Assembly (NCBI GenBank): GCA_902623785.1
Contig: CACNVG010000009.1
Span: forward strand, 1 to 35,800
Source: an uncultured Pelagibacteraceae bacterium
Lineage (GTDB): Bacteria > Pseudomonadota > Alphaproteobacteria > Pelagibacterales > Pelagibacteraceae
Length of the DNA stretch: 35,800 nt
Direction: 5' to 3'
The notes below the pieces were generated by a model. The model ran no database searches. It was not told the DNA's origin and saw only the letters and a program-made list of their open reading frames with translations. Below are positions 1-6,473 of the stretch, piece after piece. The position numbers were made by a program, and so were the translations under genes. How positions within the stretch are numbered: position 1 is the first letter of the stretch; every line of letters starts with the position of its first letter.

Positions 1-91
1 AATCTTAAAAAATTTTCTGTGAATTTAGTTATATTTTATGTATTTTTTTTGATTTTAAATTTATATAAAATTAATTTTAAAAATTATATGA

Positions 92-1492
92 TCAGTTAAG
101 AGATTTTATAATCTCCTCTGTCATTTTTTTAGCATCAGCAAACAACATTAGTGTGTTATCTCTATAAAATAAATCATTATCAATACCTGCATATCCTGGT
201 GACAAACTTCTTTTAACAAAAAGAACAGATTTACATTTCTCTACATCTAACACTGGCATTCCATAAATTGGGCTTTGAGGATCTGACTTTGCCACTGGAT
301 TAGTCACATCATTCGCTCCAATAACATACGCAACATCACAATTTGCAAAATCATTGTTAATTTCCTCTAATTCAAAAACTTCATCATAAGGTACATTAGC
401 TTCTGCTAATAAAACATTCATATGACCTGGCATTCTTCCGGCAACCGGGTGGATAGCATATGTTACTTTTACTCCATTCTTCTTTAAAGTATCAACCATT
501 TCTCTTAAAGCATGTTGTGCCTGAGCAACAGCCATGCCGTAACCAGGAACAATTATGACTGATGAAGCATTTTTCATTAAAAAAGCTGCGTCGTCTGCAT
601 TTCCACTTTTAACTGGCTTTTGTTCTTTGCTTATCTTGGTCGAAACTTGATCTGCTCCTCCAAAGCCTCCAAGTATCACATTGAAAAATGATCTATTCAT
701 ACCTTTGCACATTATGTAAGATAATATTGCACCTGAAGATCCCACTAAAGCACCAGTGATTATTAAGGCCGTATTTTCTAATGTAAAACCTATCCCAGCT
801 GCAGCCCAGCCCGAATAAGAGTTAAGCATTGAAATTACTACTGGCATATCTGCACCACCTATTGGAATGATCAACAAAAAGCCAACCAGAAAAGAAATTG
901 CAATCAATGACCAGAAAAAATTAGGAGACTGGTTTTGACATAAAAGATAAGTCAAAATTATAATAGAAATTAAAAATAACAAATTCAACATGTGTTGCCC
1001 TGGGAATGTTATTGGGGATCCAGACATTAAGCCTCTTAATTTAAGGAAAGCTATAATTGAACCTGAAAAAGTAATTGCTCCAACTGCTGCTCCTATCGAC
1101 ATCTCAATTAGACTGGCAAGTTTAATATTTCCAGAAGTTCCTAAATTAAAAACCTCAGGACTTATAAAAGCGGATATTGCAACAAACACTGCAGCCAAAC
1201 CTACCAAACTATGAAAGCCAGCTACTAGCTCAGGCATCGCAGTCATAGGTATTTTGAATGCAATAAAAGCACCTATTGAACCACCGATTAGTAAGAATAG
1301 TAACACATATAAAAATCCACTTGAAAAGTTATCTATAGACAGAAAAGTAACAGCTATAGCGATTGCCATTCCAATTATTCCAAATAAATTTCCTTGTCTT
1401 GAAGTTTCTGGAGAAGACAAACCTCTTAAAGCTAAAATAAATAAAATTCCAGAAATTAAATAAAATATTGCCAGTAAATTTGCAGAGATCAT
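92..1492 (-). CDS. pntB: NAD(P) transhydrogenase, beta subunit
   Basis: This is the membrane and NADP(H)-binding subunit of the proton-translocating transhydrogenase, which uses the proton gradient to reduce NADP+ with NADH in the inner membrane. The protein has 466 residues, close to the usual length of about 460. Residues 1-265 form a series of hydrophobic helices, and H94 in the FHSLVG motif matches the conserved membrane histidine involved in proton transfer. Residues 311-460 are the soluble NADP-binding domain III, with the GYGMAVAQAQ fingerprint at 317-326, HPVAGRMPGHMNVLLAE around 348-364, GANDVTNP at 392-399 and SPGYAGIDNDLF at 431-442. The start overlaps the end of pntAB by 4 bp (ATGA), so the two are translationally coupled. 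It is the last gene of the cluster that begins at the 5S rRNA. Confidence 0.97.
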   Translation of the reverse strand: MISANLLAIFYLISGILFILALRGLSSPETSRQGNLFGIIGMAIAIAVTFLSIDNFSSGFLYVLLFLLIGGSIGAFIAFKIPMTAMPELVAGFHSLVGLAAVFVAISAFISPEVFNLGTSGNIKLASLIEMSIGAAVGAITFSGSIIAFLKLRGLMSGSPITFPGQHMLNLLFLISIIILTYLLCQNQSPNFFWSLIAISFLVGFLLIIPIGGADMPVVISMLNSYSGWAAAGIGFTLENTALIITGALVGSSGAILSYIMCKGMNRSFFNVILGGFGGADQVSTKISKEQKPVKSGNADDAAFLMKNASSVIIVPGYGMAVAQAQHALREMVDTLKKNGVKVTYAIHPVAGRMPGHMNVLLAEANVPYDEVFELEEINNDFANCDVAYVIGANDVTNPVAKSDPQSPIYGMPVLDVEKCKSVLFVKRSLSPGYAGIDNDLFYRDNTLMLFADAKKMTEEIIKSLN

Positions 1493-1800
1493 TTTTTATC
1501 TTTCTTTTTTTTTTTGTACATTGCTAACATTCTCTGTGTCACCAAAAATCCACCAAATATATTTATTGCTGCTAATACAATAGCTAAAAATCCAAATATA
1601 CTAGATTGATTAAAAACACTTAAATTTGTTCCTGCCAATGAAGCGATTATAGCTCCAACTATAATTACTGAAGATATTGCATTAGTTACTGACATTAGAG
1701 GAGTATGTAAAGAGGGAGTAACACTCCATACAACGTAATAACCAACAAAGATTGACAATATGAATATGCTTAATCTAAAAATAAATGGGTCTATTTCCAT
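1489..1800 (-). CDS. pntAB: NAD(P) transhydrogenase, alpha subunit part 2
   Basis: This small membrane subunit (103 residues) corresponds to the C-terminal transmembrane part of E. coli PntA, which many alphaproteobacteria encode as a separate gene. Three to four hydrophobic segments are visible (about residues 8-25, 42-58 and 67-85), with the conserved motif TPSLHTPLMSVTNAIS at 28-43, and a lysine-rich cytoplasmic tail ends the protein. It sits 2 bp downstream of pntAA and overlaps pntB by 4 bp, so the three must be expressed together. It would assemble with PntB into the proton channel. The split arrangement is normal for this class of bacteria. Confidence 0.95.
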   Translation of the reverse strand: MEIDPFIFRLSIFILSIFVGYYVVWSVTPSLHTPLMSVTNAISSVIIVGAIIASLAGTNLSVFNQSSIFGFLAIVLAAINIFGGFLVTQRMLAMYKKKKKDKK

Positions 1801-1802
1801 AA

Positions 1803-2891
1803 TTACTTTATCAATGTTTCTTTAATTATTTCATCCTCTAAATTAATATTAACACTTTTTTTTTCTTTATCATAAAGATTTGATACAAAATTAAATATAT
1901 TTTTTGAATATAAGTTTGAAGCTGAGACCGGAAGTTTATTTAATATATTTTTCTCACCCATAATCTTAACTCCATTAAAATCAACTTCTTCATCAGCTTT
2001 AGTCACAGCAGTGTTTCCACCCTGAGCAGCTGCTAAATCATAAATTACAGAACCTGGCTGCATATTTTTAATCATACCTTCTTTAATAATTACTGGAGCT
2101 TTTTTACCAGGTATTAACGCTGTACAAATAACAATATCAATTTTTTTCAATGTTTCAGCTAGAAGATCTTCTTGTTTTTTCTTAAATTCATCTGAAGTTT
2201 CTTTAGCATATCCACCAGATGTCTCAAGATTTTCTGCACCCTCTACTGTTAAGAATTTTCCTCCCAAACTTTCAACTTGTTCTTTTGATGTCATCCTTAC
2301 ATCGGTTGCAAAAACTATACCACCCATTCGTTTTGCTGTTGCGATCGCTTGTAATCCAGCAACTCCTGCACCCACAACTAAAATTTTTGCTGCTGGAATT
2401 GTGCCTGCTGCTGTCATCATCATTGGAATTGCTTTTTTAAAATTTGCAAAAGCCTCTACTACAGCTTTGTATCCAGCCAAATTGGCTTGTGATGAAAGAA
2501 TATCCATTGATTGAGCTCTTGTTATTCTCGGTAAAAGTTCTAATGAAAAGACATTGATTTTTTTTTTTGATATACCGGAAATAATTTCTTTATTTGAGTA
2601 AGGGTTAAAGACACCAATCAAATTTTGTTTTTCATGTAAATGATTTAAATTTTCTTCAGATGGTAAGTTAAATTGGAGTATGAAATTAGAATTGGCTAAA
2701 ATTTTTTTTTTATCTTCAGTAATTTCAGCACCAAATGATTTATACATGTTATCGTTTAAACCAATATGCTCAGCATAATTTTTTTCTATTAATACTTTAA
2801 ATCCTAAATCAAGAAATTTTTTTACAATTTCTGGCGTTATCGCAACTCTGCTCTCAATTTTACGATCTTCATTTATTGAACCAACTATCAT
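1803..2891 (-). CDS. pntAA: NAD(P) transhydrogenase, alpha subunit part 1
   Basis: This is the soluble NAD(H)-binding domain I subunit of the transhydrogenase. I chose the ATG at 2889-2891 (protein beginning MIVGSINED, 362 residues), because this is where homologues begin. An in-frame extension to 2954 would run inside the preceding oxidase gene and has no conserved sequence. The Rossmann dinucleotide motif GAGVAGLQAIATAKRMG lies at about residues 174-190, preceded by the family block SLELLPRITRAQSMDILSSQ around 116-135. The RKIESRVAITPEIVKK block near the N-terminus is shared with alanine dehydrogenase-type enzymes. It begins 5 bp after the stop of the oxidase subunit IV gene and ends 2 bp before pntAB. 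Confidence 0.95.
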   Translation of the reverse strand: MIVGSINEDRKIESRVAITPEIVKKFLDLGFKVLIEKNYAEHIGLNDNMYKSFGAEITEDKKKILANSNFILQFNLPSEENLNHLHEKQNLIGVFNPYSNKEIISGISKKKINVFSLELLPRITRAQSMDILSSQANLAGYKAVVEAFANFKKAIPMMMTAAGTIPAAKILVVGAGVAGLQAIATAKRMGGIVFATDVRMTSKEQVESLGGKFLTVEGAENLETSGGYAKETSDEFKKKQEDLLAETLKKIDIVICTALIPGKKAPVIIKEGMIKNMQPGSVIYDLAAAQGGNTAVTKADEEVDFNGVKIMGEKNILNKLPVSASNLYSKNIFNFVSNLYDKEKKSVNINLEDEIIKETLIK

Positions 2892-2896
2892 TTTAA

Positions 2897-3007
2897 TTAC
2901 AATAAGAAAATAGCCAGAAGTGTGAGAATAACAATGACTGAAATTGTCCCCCACAGAACAAATTTTGTAAAATTATCCCACGTTTTTTTATGGTTATCAT
3001 TTTCCAT
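2897..3007 (-). CDS. aa3-type cytochrome c oxidase subunit IV (36 aa)
   Basis: This is a 36-residue single-pass membrane protein. Reading the minus strand from ATG 3007 gives MENDNHKKTWDNFTKF, followed by one hydrophobic helix (about residues 17-36) that ends at the stop at 2897-2899. The soluble head with the H-K-x-T-W-x-x-F-T-K pattern is typical of the bacterial aa3-type oxidase subunit IV family (COX4_pro_2), a small accessory subunit of terminal oxidase. The gene lies 4 bp after rpmJ and 5 bp before pntAA. In many alphaproteobacteria this gene sits directly upstream of the transhydrogenase genes, which supports the call. The product is short, so the identification rests on motif and context together. 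Confidence 0.82.
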   Translation of the reverse strand: MENDNHKKTWDNFTKFVLWGTISVIVILTLLAIFLL

Positions 3008-3011
3008 AAAA

Positions 3012-3137
3012 TTATTTTTGTCTTGCTTTAAATTTTGGGTTTTTTTTATTAATTATATAAACACGACCCCTTCTTTTTACCATTTTGGAGTTGAGGTCTC
3101 TTTTTTTGAGTGATTTTAAAGAACTTTTAATTTTCAT
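3012..3137 (-). CDS. rpmJ: 50S ribosomal protein bL36, zinc-free type (41 aa)
   Basis: The minus strand from ATG 3137 encodes 41 residues, beginning [14 protein letters not shown] and ending [10 protein letters not shown]. The SLKSLKKR start, the [15 protein letters not shown] core and the terminal KARQK are diagnostic of bL36. The cysteines and histidine of the zinc-binding form are absent, so it is the C-minus type usual in alphaproteobacteria. Its start codon is only 6 nt from the 3' end of the mature 5S rRNA, so it must share the 5S transcript. The only Shine-Dalgarno-like triplet (AGG, 7 nt before ATG) lies inside the 3' strand of the 5S terminal helix. The next gene starts 4 bp after its stop. 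Confidence 0.93.
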
Positions 3138-3143
3138 AATTAA

Positions 3144-3259
3144 GCCTGGCAACGTCCTACTCTCCCATGTCTTAAGACAAAGTACCATCGGCGCAGAAGG
3201 GCTTGACTTCCGAGTTCGGAATGGGATCGGGTATTACACCTTCGCAAAAATCACCAGGC
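3144..3259 (-). rRNA. rrf: 5S ribosomal RNA, isolated from 16S/23S
   Basis: The minus strand reads GCCTGGTGATTTTTGCG at the 5' end and GAGTAGGACGTTGCCAGGC at the 3' end, with the universal 5S core CCGATCCCATTCCGAACTCG and CGCCGATGGTA between. The terminal helix pairs GCCTGG (3259-3254) with CCAGGC (3149-3144). The length is about 116 nt, normal for bacteria. No 23S or 16S lies upstream: instead a plus-strand glycosyltransferase begins 65 bp away. The gene therefore needs its own promoter, and a good candidate is present at 3266-3293. Ends are set from the helix and could be off by one or two bases. Confidence 0.97.
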
Positions 3260-3265
3260 GAACTA

Positions 3266-3293
3266 CTTATACTTTAAAGTTATATTTTGTAAA
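3266..3293 (-). promoter_or_regulatory. Candidate sigma70 promoter of the 5S-rpmJ-pnt cluster
   Basis: On the minus strand, TTTACA (3293-3288) and TATAAG (3271-3266) are separated by 16 bp. Each matches the consensus at 5 of 6 positions. Six bases then separate the -10 box from 3259, the first base of the mature 5S, so initiation is predicted at or beside the mature 5' end. The same 65-bp gap must also serve the divergent glycosyltransferase at 3325. Confidence 0.6.
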
Positions 3294-3324
3294 CATTTTT
3301 TTTAAAAATGGTAGACTTAAAAAA

Positions 3325-4281
3325 ATGCAAAATATACTTAAATATCGTAGATATCTTAACAAAAAAGTTTCTAATAATAATCAAATTTATTTTAGACACC
3401 AAAAATATAGTATTGATAATAAAGGAAAATATATATCATTTCTAAAGGCTACAAAAAAATTTAGTCCCAATCTTTTAATTAAAGAAGGTGGAAAAAGAAC
3501 TAAAAATTTTTTTCGAAGAAACTTAAAAAGAAAACCTTTAATTAGTATTATAACTGTTGTTTACAACGGTCAAAAGGAAATCGAAAACACAATAAAAAGT
3601 GTTTTATTGCAGAATTACGATAACACTGAGTATATTATAGTTGATGGGGGATCAGTTGATGGAACTATATCAATTATAAAAAAATACGAAAAATATTTAG
3701 ACTATTGGATAAGTCAAAAAGATAACGGCACTTTTGATGCTTGGAATAAGGGTATAATTCTTTCTACTGGTGATTATATATGTTTTTTAAATGCCGGGGA
3801 TTACTTTACTGAGAATGCTCTAAATTTAATTGTAAAAAAAATTAATCAAAAAAAAATAGATATAATTTTTAGTCCAGTTCTAAAAAAAAAAAAATTTTAT
3901 GGCTTTTATCCAAAAAAAATATATTCAAGATTGAACATTATCCCAAGTTTTACTTCAACATTTGTAAACAAAAATATTTACAAAAAACATGGTTTATTTA
4001 ATTTAAATTTAAAACATTTTTCAGACTATGAATTTATTTACAGGGTAATGAATAAAAAAAATTTGATATGGGATACAACTGATAAAAATAAAATTATTAC
4101 AGTTTTTGATCTGAAAGGTGGAACGAGTAAACTAAAAATTCTCGATCTTTTAAAATCTGAACTCAAAATTAGGCTTAAGTACGAAAATTATATTTTTGTA
4201 CTGATAAAGATTTTTTTAAAATATATCAGATTTTATTATATAAAAATTTTTAAAAAAAAGAAATTTGATAAATATAATTAA
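3325..4281 (+). CDS. Family 2 glycosyltransferase with basic N-terminal extension
   Basis: This 318-residue protein is predicted to transfer a sugar from a nucleotide donor to a growing surface glycan. The GT-A fold starts at about residue 71 (PLISIITVVYNGQKEIENTI). It has DGGSVDGT at 107-114, the KDNGTFDAWNKGI block at 132-144 and LNAGD at 155-159, which stands where the DxD metal site usually is. The first 70 residues are rich in lysine, arginine and aromatic residues and match no domain I know. I chose ATG 3325: the frame stays open back to 3085, but that would read antisense through the 5S gene. The gene runs divergently from the 5S and its stop interlocks with that of the facing gene (TTAA, 4278-4281). 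Donor and acceptor are unknown. Confidence 0.8.
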   Translation: MQNILKYRRYLNKKVSNNNQIYFRHQKYSIDNKGKYISFLKATKKFSPNLLIKEGGKRTKNFFRRNLKRKPLISIITVVYNGQKEIENTIKSVLLQNYDNTEYIIVDGGSVDGTISIIKKYEKYLDYWISQKDNGTFDAWNKGIILSTGDYICFLNAGDYFTENALNLIVKKINQKKIDIIFSPVLKKKKFYGFYPKKIYSRLNIIPSFTSTFVNKNIYKKHGLFNLNLKHFSDYEFIYRVMNKKNLIWDTTDKNKIITVFDLKGGTSKLKILDLLKSELKIRLKYENYIFVLIKIFLKYIRFYYIKIFKKKKFDKYN

Positions 4282-6473
4282 TTATTAAAGAAAAATTTAA
4301 TTGTTTTAATCATTTTCTGAAATTTTGAATTATCTATCATAGGATTTAAACCAATATAAAGACCATAATTATGAATAAAGTCTGCATTAGGAAATTTTCT
4401 TACTCTTAATTCTTTAAATACTTTCGCAACAGGATGACGACAAAGATTACCTACAATTATAGGTCTTGACTCAATTCCATTTTTTTCAAGATACTCAATA
4501 AATTTTTGACGTTTAAATTTCGAATCTTTTTTAAAAATTATTGGTATTGAAAACCAGCTAGGATCAGCTTTCTTTTCAACTTGAGGAAAATATATATGTG
4601 GGTTATTTAAAAAATTAATTTTGAATTCATTGAAAAGTTTTTTTCTTGTTAAATTAAATTTTTCTAATTTTTTTAATTGTTCAATTCCAAAGCCTGCCTG
4701 TAATTCTGTTGGCCTTACATTAAGTCCCCAATTTACAAACTCAAATTTTTTGTAGATTTGATTTGTATTTCCCCCTCTATAATTAATATCTCTTTTCCAA
4801 CCATGTGATCTTAAATATTTAAGATTTTGAAATATTTTTTTGTTGTTTGTTACAATCATGCCTCCTTCCATTGTCGTAATATGGTGAGAAAAATAAAATG
4901 AAAAACTTCCTGCTAAACCAAAATTGCCAACAAACTTTTTTCCATACTTCGAGCCAAGTGCCTCACAACAGTCTTCGAGAATGATTAGGTCGTGTTGTTT
5001 AGCTAGTTTTGTGATTTCGTCCATATTACAAGGATTCCCCAGTGCATGAACAACAAAAATTGCCTTTGTCTTCTTTGAAATACTTTTTTTTAAATCAAGT
5101 AAATCTATGTTTAAAGAATTTATATCAACATCAACAAACTTTACTTTTAAACCAGCCATCATCACGCTCCATATATGTGTTGGCCAAGTAAGAATAGGAA
5201 CTATAACCTCATCTCCCTTTTTTAATAAATTTAGTCTTTTATCAATCAAACTTAAGCTCATTAATAAGTCAGATGAAGATCCACTATTTACCATAACAGA
5301 ATGATTGTAATTAAATTTTTTTGAAAATTTTTTTTCAAATATATTAGTTTTATCCCACATTGTTGTTTTATATTCCGACATAGAAACCATCGCTTGTTTG
5401 ATTTCTTTTTCATCATACGTTGGGACGCTGAGTGGATACCAATATTTCTTGTAAGAATTAGAATTTTTATTTTTATTCTTTAAGTTAAAATTAAAACTTA
5501 CAGTTTGGTTTTTCTTATTTTTTGATTTTACAATATTTTTTTTTAAATTTTTATTAGAAATGTTTCTAAATTCATTTACTGTCATGTCTATACCAGTTTC
5601 GAGTTTAATTTTGGATTTAAACCCTAATCTTGAAATTTTAGATATATCTAATAGTTTTCTTTTTACTCCATCAGGTTTTGTTTTATCCCACTTTATAATT
5701 CCTTTATATCCAACTTTTTTAGCAATTTTTGTAGCAAGTTCTTTAACCGACAAATCATACCCAGAGCCAACATTTATTGGATTAACTGAGTTATATTTTT
5801 TCATCAAAAAAATCAAAGATTTTGCAGCGTCTGAAACGTGAATGAACTCCCTTTTTGGCTTTCCAGTTCCCCAAAGAGTCACTATATTTTTATTTTTATT
5901 TTTAGCCTCAACAAATCTTCGAACCAAAGCTGATAGAACATGAGAATTATCAAAATCAAAGTTGTCATTCGTTCCATATATATTACACATCATGGGGCAA
6001 ATAATTTTTGTCGAATATCTTTCGTTGTAATATTTAGCAAGTCTTACACCAGTGATCTTTGCGAGTGCGTAGGCTTCATTTGTTTGTTCAAGGTAGCCGC
6101 TTAAGAGTGAAGTTTCTTTAATAGGTTGCTTGGAAGATTTCGGATATATACATGAACTACCTAAAAATATTGATTTTTTGGTCTTAAATTTGTGTATACA
6201 CTTGAAAAGATTAATTTGTATCAATTGGTTATCTTCGAAAAACTCAATTTTATTTTTTTCATTAGCTAGTATGCCTCCAACTTTGGCGGCAACTATATAT
6301 ACGTATTGGGGTTTATTTTTTCTAAAATAGTTTTCTACCTCGTCGTAATTTAAATAATTTACTTCTTGCCTACTTGGTTTGAGTAATTTAATTTTTTTAT
6401 CTTTTTCTAACTCTTGAATTAGAGCTTTTCCAACCATTCCATTGGCGCCTGCAATTAAAACTTTTGATCTCAT
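4278..6473 (-). CDS. Fusion: GDP-sugar epimerase/reductase + ColD-like 3-dehydratase (putative GDP-L-colitose synthase)
   Basis: Two enzymes are joined in 731 residues. Residues 1-305 are an extended SDR of the GDP-L-fucose synthase/ColC family: GxxGxxG at G9, G12 and G15, catalytic S107, Y135 and K139 (YALAK), and the epimerase acid-base pair C108 and H178 (in DNSHVL). A lysine/asparagine-rich linker (about 306-342) follows. Residues 345-731 are a PLP enzyme of the DegT/DnrJ/EryC1 fold with NSGSSSDLL at 396-404 and EDCCEALGS at 500-508. In SFYFSHHITTMEGG (525-538), H530 replaces the PLP-binding lysine. That is the hallmark of GDP-4-keto-6-deoxymannose 3-dehydratase (ColD). The cysteine cluster of the iron-sulfur RfbH/E1 dehydrases is absent. 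The gene lies 3 bp after gmd, so the predicted product is GDP-L-colitose. The first half acting alone would give GDP-L-fucose. Confidence 0.8.
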   Translation of the reverse strand: MRSKVLIAGANGMVGKALIQELEKDKKIKLLKPSRQEVNYLNYDEVENYFRKNKPQYVYIVAAKVGGILANEKNKIEFFEDNQLIQINLFKCIHKFKTKKSIFLGSSCIYPKSSKQPIKETSLLSGYLEQTNEAYALAKITGVRLAKYYNERYSTKIICPMMCNIYGTNDNFDFDNSHVLSALVRRFVEAKNKNKNIVTLWGTGKPKREFIHVSDAAKSLIFLMKKYNSVNPINVGSGYDLSVKELATKIAKKVGYKGIIKWDKTKPDGVKRKLLDISKISRLGFKSKIKLETGIDMTVNEFRNISNKNLKKNIVKSKNKKNQTVSFNFNLKNKNKNSNSYKKYWYPLSVPTYDEKEIKQAMVSMSEYKTTMWDKTNIFEKKFSKKFNYNHSVMVNSGSSSDLLMSLSLIDKRLNLLKKGDEVIVPILTWPTHIWSVMMAGLKVKFVDVDINSLNIDLLDLKKSISKKTKAIFVVHALGNPCNMDEITKLAKQHDLIILEDCCEALGSKYGKKFVGNFGLAGSFSFYFSHHITTMEGGMIVTNNKKIFQNLKYLRSHGWKRDINYRGGNTNQIYKKFEFVNWGLNVRPTELQAGFGIEQLKKLEKFNLTRKKLFNEFKINFLNNPHIYFPQVEKKADPSWFSIPIIFKKDSKFKRQKFIEYLEKNGIESRPIIVGNLCRHPVAKVFKELRVRKFPNADFIHNYGLYIGLNPMIDNSKFQKMIKTIKFFFNN

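Follow-up and report, generated by a model that had tools for sequence, protein, structure and literature searches.

The thrT-tufB unit of Escherichia coli is a bacterial tRNA-mRNA co-transcript, and the transcripts of animal mitochondria are punctuated by tRNAs. The locus analyzed here resembles both in that a stable RNA and an ORF lie a few nucleotides apart on one strand with short leaders, and in that processing of the stable RNA is expected to make the 5′ end of the mRNA. It differs from the tRNA-mRNA co-transcripts in that a 5S rRNA with its own promoter occupies the head of the putative transcript, and the cut would be made at the 3′ end of 5S rather than at a tRNA end. In Rickettsia, a detached 23S-5S unit is found together with fmt, an rRNA sharing its transcript with a protein gene. 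There, as appears to be the case here, rRNA and a protein gene are joined in one transcript after a split of the operon in a reduced alphaproteobacterial genome, but the protein gene precedes the rRNA in Rickettsia, whereas the rRNA precedes the protein genes in the present locus.

The rRNA operon of SAR11 bacteria is split by a surface-polysaccharide island (hypervariable region 2), which separates 5S from 16S-23S (PMC2217521, PMC3815206, PMC11898729). The passages of these papers that deal with the island present 5S as its border, and the 5S promoter and the joining of 5S to rpmJ are not described in those passages. The words 'rpmJ', 'L36' and 'pntA' are absent from the main text of PMC11898729; in its account of group Ib.4, the island has moved and 5S is elsewhere. 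The identical locus appears in the paper on the pntA motif (RF01810), according to the relevant parts of which the motif is flanked by rpmJ in HTCC1062, and its commonest annotated neighbor in metagenomic reads is 5S or rmlB (PMC2704228). That paper regards the motif as a candidate RNA regulator of pntA, whereas in the genomes compared here its span overlaps that of a coxIV ORF and its variation resembles that of coding sequence. No description of a 5S-rpmJ transcript was found among the open-licence papers listed, as judged by titles and abstract openings.

The 5S rRNA and rpmJ genes and their flanks in the window

The window, by which we mean the whole 35.8-kb stretch of DNA that was analyzed, carries the following features around its 5S rRNA gene.

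3325 to 4281, plus strand: divergent glycosyltransferase 2 gene, beyond the 5S promoter (PF00535)
3266 to 3293, minus strand: 5S promoter, with −35 TTTACA (3293 to 3288), a 16-nt spacer and −10 TATAAG (3271 to 3266); the 5S 5′ end follows 7 nt on
3144 to 3258, minus strand: 5S rRNA (Rfam RF00001, 90.7 bits, model positions 1 to 120)
3138 to 3143, minus strand: spacer between 5S and rpmJ, TTAATT, 6 nt, read from the sequence
3012 to 3137, minus strand: rpmJ, ribosomal protein bL36 type B, 41 aa (PF00444 and NF002021)
2950 to 3011, minus strand: pntA sRNA RF01810 (Rfam), overlapping the start of the coxIV ORF
2897 to 3007, minus strand: small, unannotated ORF of aa3-type cytochrome c oxidase subunit IV (coxIV), 36 aa (PF07835, E = 3.5e-10)
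1803 to 2891, minus strand: pntAA, soluble part of NAD(P) transhydrogenase alpha, 362 aa (PF05222 and PF01262)
1489 to 1800, minus strand: pntAB, membrane part of transhydrogenase alpha, 103 aa (PF12769, E = 7.7e-35)
92 to 1492, minus strand: pntB, NAD(P) transhydrogenase beta (PF02233, E = 7e-197)

The 5S match was full-length and exceeded the RF00001 gathering score, with a mature 3′ end that may lie 1 to 2 nt from the Rfam end, and it was the only 5S match in the whole genome (75% complete). The rpmJ product was matched over the whole protein by PF00444 (58.2 bits, cut-off 26.1) and by NCBIfam NF002021 (73.7, cut-off 70). A preliminary description of this DNA had placed rpmJ 6 nt behind 5S on the same strand and had noted an AGG 7 nt 5′ of the rpmJ ATG, within the 3′ arm of 5S helix I. 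Both observations hold: 5S ran from 3258 to 3144 by Rfam and rpmJ from 3137 to 3012 with TTAATT between them, and the AGG was found in the sequence at that position. The packing continues along the single strand, with gaps of 6, 4, 5, 2 and −4 nt from 5S through rpmJ, coxIV, pntAA and pntAB to pntB.

The standard 16S-23S-5S operon is absent here, no second rRNA match having been found by Rfam in the window. Past the divergent glycosyltransferase gene, four more genes that were tested proved to be nucleotide-sugar or glycosyltransferase genes. Because such genes lie beside 5S, as in SAR11 hypervariable region 2, this flank resembles the margin of the surface-polysaccharide island found between 23S and 5S. 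A 731-aa ORF at 4278 to 6473 on the minus strand contained a GDP-fucose-synthase-like and a DegT/RfbH-like aminotransferase domain in a fusion-like arrangement, with NCBIfam scores below the curated cut-offs.

The RF01810 match (3011 to 2950) scored 77.2, above the gathering score. RF01810 was also present at the 5′ end of the coxIV ORF in the HTCC1062 locus (4628 to 4689). Among 84 distinct sequences of the RF01810 span, the pairwise difference was 0.157 at the first codon position, 0.087 at the second and 0.384 at the third. The first hairpin of the motif was complete in 43 of 85 sequences, and one of its eight rungs demonstrated sizeable two-sided change (8 A-T versus 55 G-C), while changes in the other rungs mostly broke pairs or turned G-C to G-T. 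In the relevant part of the original report, the motif was screened for coding regions by BLASTX/TBLASTX, and a stretch of roughly 60 bp, somewhat conserved and unstructured, was described between the motif and pntA (Meyer 2009; PMC2704228); the rest of the coxIV ORF plus its spacer amounts to 58 nt in the window. RF01810 is probably mainly coding sequence of coxIV, and an added RNA role is possible in view of that earlier screen and of the one hairpin rung with two-sided changes. For annotation, this means that Rfam RF01810 appears to be largely coding. By the rule used, no coxIV-type ORF was present in 19 of 105 genomes, and in the two of these that were inspected (G142 and G193) a pntAA-like start directly followed rpmJ.

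Conservation of the 5S-rpmJ linkage

Among the 197 genomes of the order that were searched, 5S was found in 164 and rpmJ in 174, and 136 genomes had both genes among the best 150 matches of each. The two genes lay on one contig and one strand in 129 of these 136 genomes, all of them in the window's family, which amounts to linkage in 129 of the 129 members with both genes among those best matches. The gap was 6 to 23 nt in 80 of the linked genomes (referred to as adjacent) and 860 to 2942 nt in the other 49 (gene-between), and the window had the smallest gap among the 136. The seven unlinked genomes all belonged to a second family; the genes were about 65 kb apart on one contig in three and on separate contigs in four. 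One of the adjacent genomes (G011) we take to be HTCC1062, and the window's family is therefore called Pelagibacteraceae. On the strength of these genome comparisons the 5S-rpmJ linkage is not chance, and the junction, the conservation of which across SAR11 the preliminary description had proposed to check, is widely kept there.

A same-strand ORF started 6 to 28 nt past 5S in 103 of the 105 genomes read. This ORF was rpmJ in 80 genomes; in 23 of the 25 gene-between genomes read (out of 49 members of that class) it was an epimerase-type gene, followed by rpmJ. The two exceptions had an antisense gene between 5S and rpmJ (G115) or the next ORF 69 nt on (G022). In HTCC1062, a homologous epimerase gene (PF01370) was located upstream of 5S, and 17 other adjacent genomes had one in that place (at least 60% identity, within 150 nt; 0.04 to 1.5 kb upstream was examined per genome). 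Since the epimerase gene stands on either side of 5S among the genomes, 5S appears to have switched sides more than once. A tree of the pntAA N-terminal region from 79 genomes gave 11 changes between the adjacent and gene-between states (mean of 15.7 with shuffled labels), two of which were forced by well-supported branches. This tree took in 79 of the 105 genomes, the other 26 being dropped for a missed start pattern or a short stretch, and because its branch support is weak our claim is limited to repeated switching. The gene orders and this weakly supported tree suggest that 5S changed sides of the epimerase gene repeatedly, and the tight 5S-ORF layout seems to return whichever gene comes next. 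A purpose specific to bL36 is made less likely by the gene-between class, where the first gene past 5S encodes no ribosomal protein. When the HTCC1062 locus (L121) was set beside the gene-between loci L117, L119 and L024, 5S together with its promoter was seen to lie on opposite sides of the epimerase gene.

In the second family, 5S retains its customary setting: the 23S end lay 93 nt before 5S in the one genome tested (L108). An inverted repeat flanked 5S in five of the five genomes read (L108 to L112), with TTCACGTTT before and AAACGTGAA after the gene, and this repeat looks like a pre-5S processing stem. A perfect 8-nt complement within 22 nt on both sides of 5S was present in only 2 of 105 Pelagibacteraceae junctions. 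At another locus of the second family (L115), a 43-aa ORF overlapped the rpmJ start by four bases.

Public genomes were scanned with an rpmJ pattern that excluded the SAR11 form of the gene; at least 120 stretches matched, and 80 loci were read. A loose 5S motif placed no 5S before the match in 78 of the 80, and the two loci that it flagged (L135 and L177) had no 5S by Rfam. Six of 385 genomes in the class matched a similar pattern. Three of them came from the window's family (the window genome, G001 and G003) and three from elsewhere; two of the latter had no 5S by Rfam (G432 and G278), and the printed match in G398 was unlike a bL36 start. The proposed check beyond SAR11 thus turned up no 5S-rpmJ pair outside the window's family among the matches examined (80 loci, and the matches in 385 class genomes), a result that depends on the patterns used.

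Transcription, proposed processing and translation of rpmJ

The arrangement TTTACA, 16 to 18 nt, TATAA(G) was found upstream of 5S in most genomes. Scored over 12 positions by a rule that was set after viewing the sequences and that allows either G or T as the third base of the −35 box, a 5S promoter of at least 10/12 was present in 84 of 104 genomes, whereas the rate was 4.6% in shuffles and 5.5% in a set of 1014 other upstream windows; the score was below 10/12 in the other 20 genomes. The −10 ended 5 to 8 nt before 5S in 82 of the 84 promoter-positive genomes, and RNA is therefore expected to start at or near the mature 5S 5′ end. A generic promoter scan, which requires the −10 box to end in T, misses this promoter.

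The 50 nt before rpmJ, which are mostly conserved rRNA sequence, contained no promoter of at least 10/12 in any of the 80 adjacent genomes; five scored 9, with a −10 within 3 nt of the ATG. The terminator scan, run on the window and HTCC1062, found no terminator-like site in window positions 50 to 3400 and two at chance level inside pntB of HTCC1062. On one strand and with no such promoter between them, 5S and rpmJ have the layout of a co-transcript. Because there is a conserved promoter before 5S, none before rpmJ and no terminator-like site, rpmJ is probably expressed from the 5S transcript, as the preliminary description had maintained.

Among the gene-between genomes, four from three other genera (G007, G009, G054 and G158) and G163 had a promoter-like site ending 8 to 10 nt before rpmJ. 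The scores were 9 to 10, and a score of at least 9 was reached by about 28% of shuffled windows, which gives only a hint that rpmJ mRNA might be almost leaderless in these five relatives. A score of 9 before rpmJ was also obtained in the other 20 gene-between genomes, where the site mostly lay in the last part of the preceding gene, and rpmJ may have a promoter of its own in them.

We consider it probable that the single 5S gene forms the opening cistron of a 5S-rpmJ-coxIV-pnt operon and that 3′ processing of 5S releases an mRNA with a short leader. A sigma70-like promoter would start the RNA at or within a few nucleotides of the mature 5S 5′ end, and the polymerase would read through 5S into rpmJ, coxIV, pntAA, pntAB and pntB. 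The 3′ end of 5S would be formed by RNases that cleave within the A/U-rich spacer or trim it, and some or all of the cuts would free an mRNA whose leader is no longer than 6 to 23 nt, from which rpmJ would be translated without a Shine-Dalgarno site. A gene of the RNase E/G family was present in both genomes tested (HTCC1062 and the window genome), and an RNase J-type gene was found in HTCC1062 but not in the 75%-complete window genome. An RNase J-type enzyme could destroy the 5′-monophosphate mRNA left by the cut, which counts against the processing model. It is plausible, as had been suggested earlier, that the cut RNA is nearly leaderless and that the uncut RNA is unable to become 5S, and no special 5S mechanism would be required for this.

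The A/U-rich spacer also bears on an alternative in which some transcripts are cut to 5S and the uncut ones serve as mRNA, so that bL36 synthesis would go up when 5S processing lags. The lack of a second promoter in the 80 adjacent genomes would allow such a choice between cutting and not cutting, but the spacer is a plausible cutting site in those same genomes, and the 30S subunit, given the footprint of a ribosome, should be excluded when a folded 5S lies 6 nt from the AUG. With no room for 30S beside a folded 5S, the cut RNA would be favored as the mRNA, and we regard the use of uncut transcripts as unlikely.

Eleven of 52 tRNAs in HTCC1062 and the window genome were followed directly, within 30 nt, by an ORF on the same strand, as counted with a crude ORF caller that missed some ORFs visible by eye (ccattttATG after G011:986294) and possibly included false ones. 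At some of the tRNA loci L242 to L279, for example after G011:467239, 843206 and 408598, ORFs started within 5 to 29 nt behind A/T-rich spacers without an obvious Shine-Dalgarno site. These data suggest tRNA-mRNA co-transcripts at some SAR11 tRNAs. The median intergenic length of HTCC1062 is given as 3 nt in the pntA motif report (PMC2704228). Because intergenic regions are this short and tRNAs also abut ORFs, the 6-nt gap in the window is less surprising, and the joining of stable RNAs to ORFs is, as read from gene order, a habit of compact SAR11 genomes. The unusual remainder is an rRNA gene with its own promoter apparently heading the unit throughout the family.

Such compaction is also what would explain the adjacency if rpmJ and pnt were expressed mainly from a promoter invisible to consensus scans, inside 5S or elsewhere, and 5S were ended by an unrecognized terminator. 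Besides the short intergenic regions and the abutting tRNAs, two weak promoter-like matches of the generic scan before pntAA (no more than chance would give) and the promoter-like sites before rpmJ in the gene-between class are compatible with this idea. We judge it quite improbable: the 50 nt before rpmJ are largely occupied by conserved rRNA without a site of at least 10/12 in the 80 genomes, and the terminator scan of window positions 50 to 3400 was empty. In the preferred model of a 5S-headed operon with a processed leader, the cause of the layout is probably genome compaction after the rRNA operon split and not a dedicated switch in the 5S fold.

The translation start of rpmJ is relevant to the latter point. 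In the 80 adjacent genomes, the 5S-rpmJ spacer was 6 to 23 nt long (13 nt in HTCC1062) and 93% A+T, and an SD-like tetramer was present in it in one genome (G001). The AGG was absent from 27 of the 80 junctions, including that of HTCC1062, and was replaced by GCCGGC or GCCAGCA; where it was present, its distance to the ATG varied from 7 to 24 nt. An SD-like tetramer was found at −20 to −5 before 2 of 32 gene starts of the window (crude ORF calls), compared with 10.8% of random 16-mers. Since this rate is no more than chance, an rpmJ without a Shine-Dalgarno site would be normal here. The AGG, which the preliminary description had taken as the only candidate for a Shine-Dalgarno site of rpmJ, was rejected in that role.

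In the predicted folds, the 3′ arm of 5S helix I had a mean pairing probability of 0.95. The AUG had a mean unpaired probability of 0.60 in the uncut and 0.61 in the cut RNA over the 80 genomes, with values below 0.5 in 25 and 26 genomes, respectively. It dropped to 0.43 only when the RNA was started 20 nt further upstream, a fold that is disfavored because the promoter position argues against RNA starting upstream of 5S. The minimum free energy fold of the window (z-score 0.05) paired the spacer and start codon with sequence upstream of 5S, a pairing that requires the RNA to begin upstream of 5S. A conserved Shine-Dalgarno site that is paired in one fold and free in the other was not found at the 5S-rpmJ junction, and the pair probabilities in the 80 genomes led us to reject the idea that the folded 5S covers the rpmJ start. 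A switch in which the AGG of helix I is the rpmJ Shine-Dalgarno site, 5S folding or processing hides or frees the start, and bL36 translation reads out 5S maturation is thus very unlikely, despite the AGG 7 nt before the ATG in the window and the strongly paired helix arm, given the AGG-less junctions, its unsteady spacing, the chance-level SD-like sites in the window and an AUG whose accessibility is unaltered by the cut.

Consequences for Pelagibacteraceae

The observation made in the preliminary description is real and conserved, and the co-transcription it proposed is likely as far as sequence can tell, whereas its regulatory inference as stated is unsupported. Of the proposed tie between bL36 output and 5S, a link through the shared transcript is likely, but control by 5S folding drew no support from the predicted accessibility of the AUG. 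With a shared 5S-headed transcript, the mRNA for bL36 and transhydrogenase would be tied to 5S synthesis by default. A stronger version, which we advance only tentatively, is that every 5S maturation in Pelagibacteraceae yields one near-leaderless mRNA for bL36, together with coxIV and transhydrogenase, such that 5S would be its obligatory 5′ portion and one promoter would set both ribosome building and NADPH supply.

The locus is a system in which one can test how rRNA and a ribosomal protein are kept in balance when a cell has a single 5S gene, and how SAR11 translates mRNAs that lack Shine-Dalgarno sites. If transcripts confirm the arrangement, a bacterial rRNA would head a protein operon family-wide, and 3′ processing of 5S would make the 5′ ends of mRNAs.
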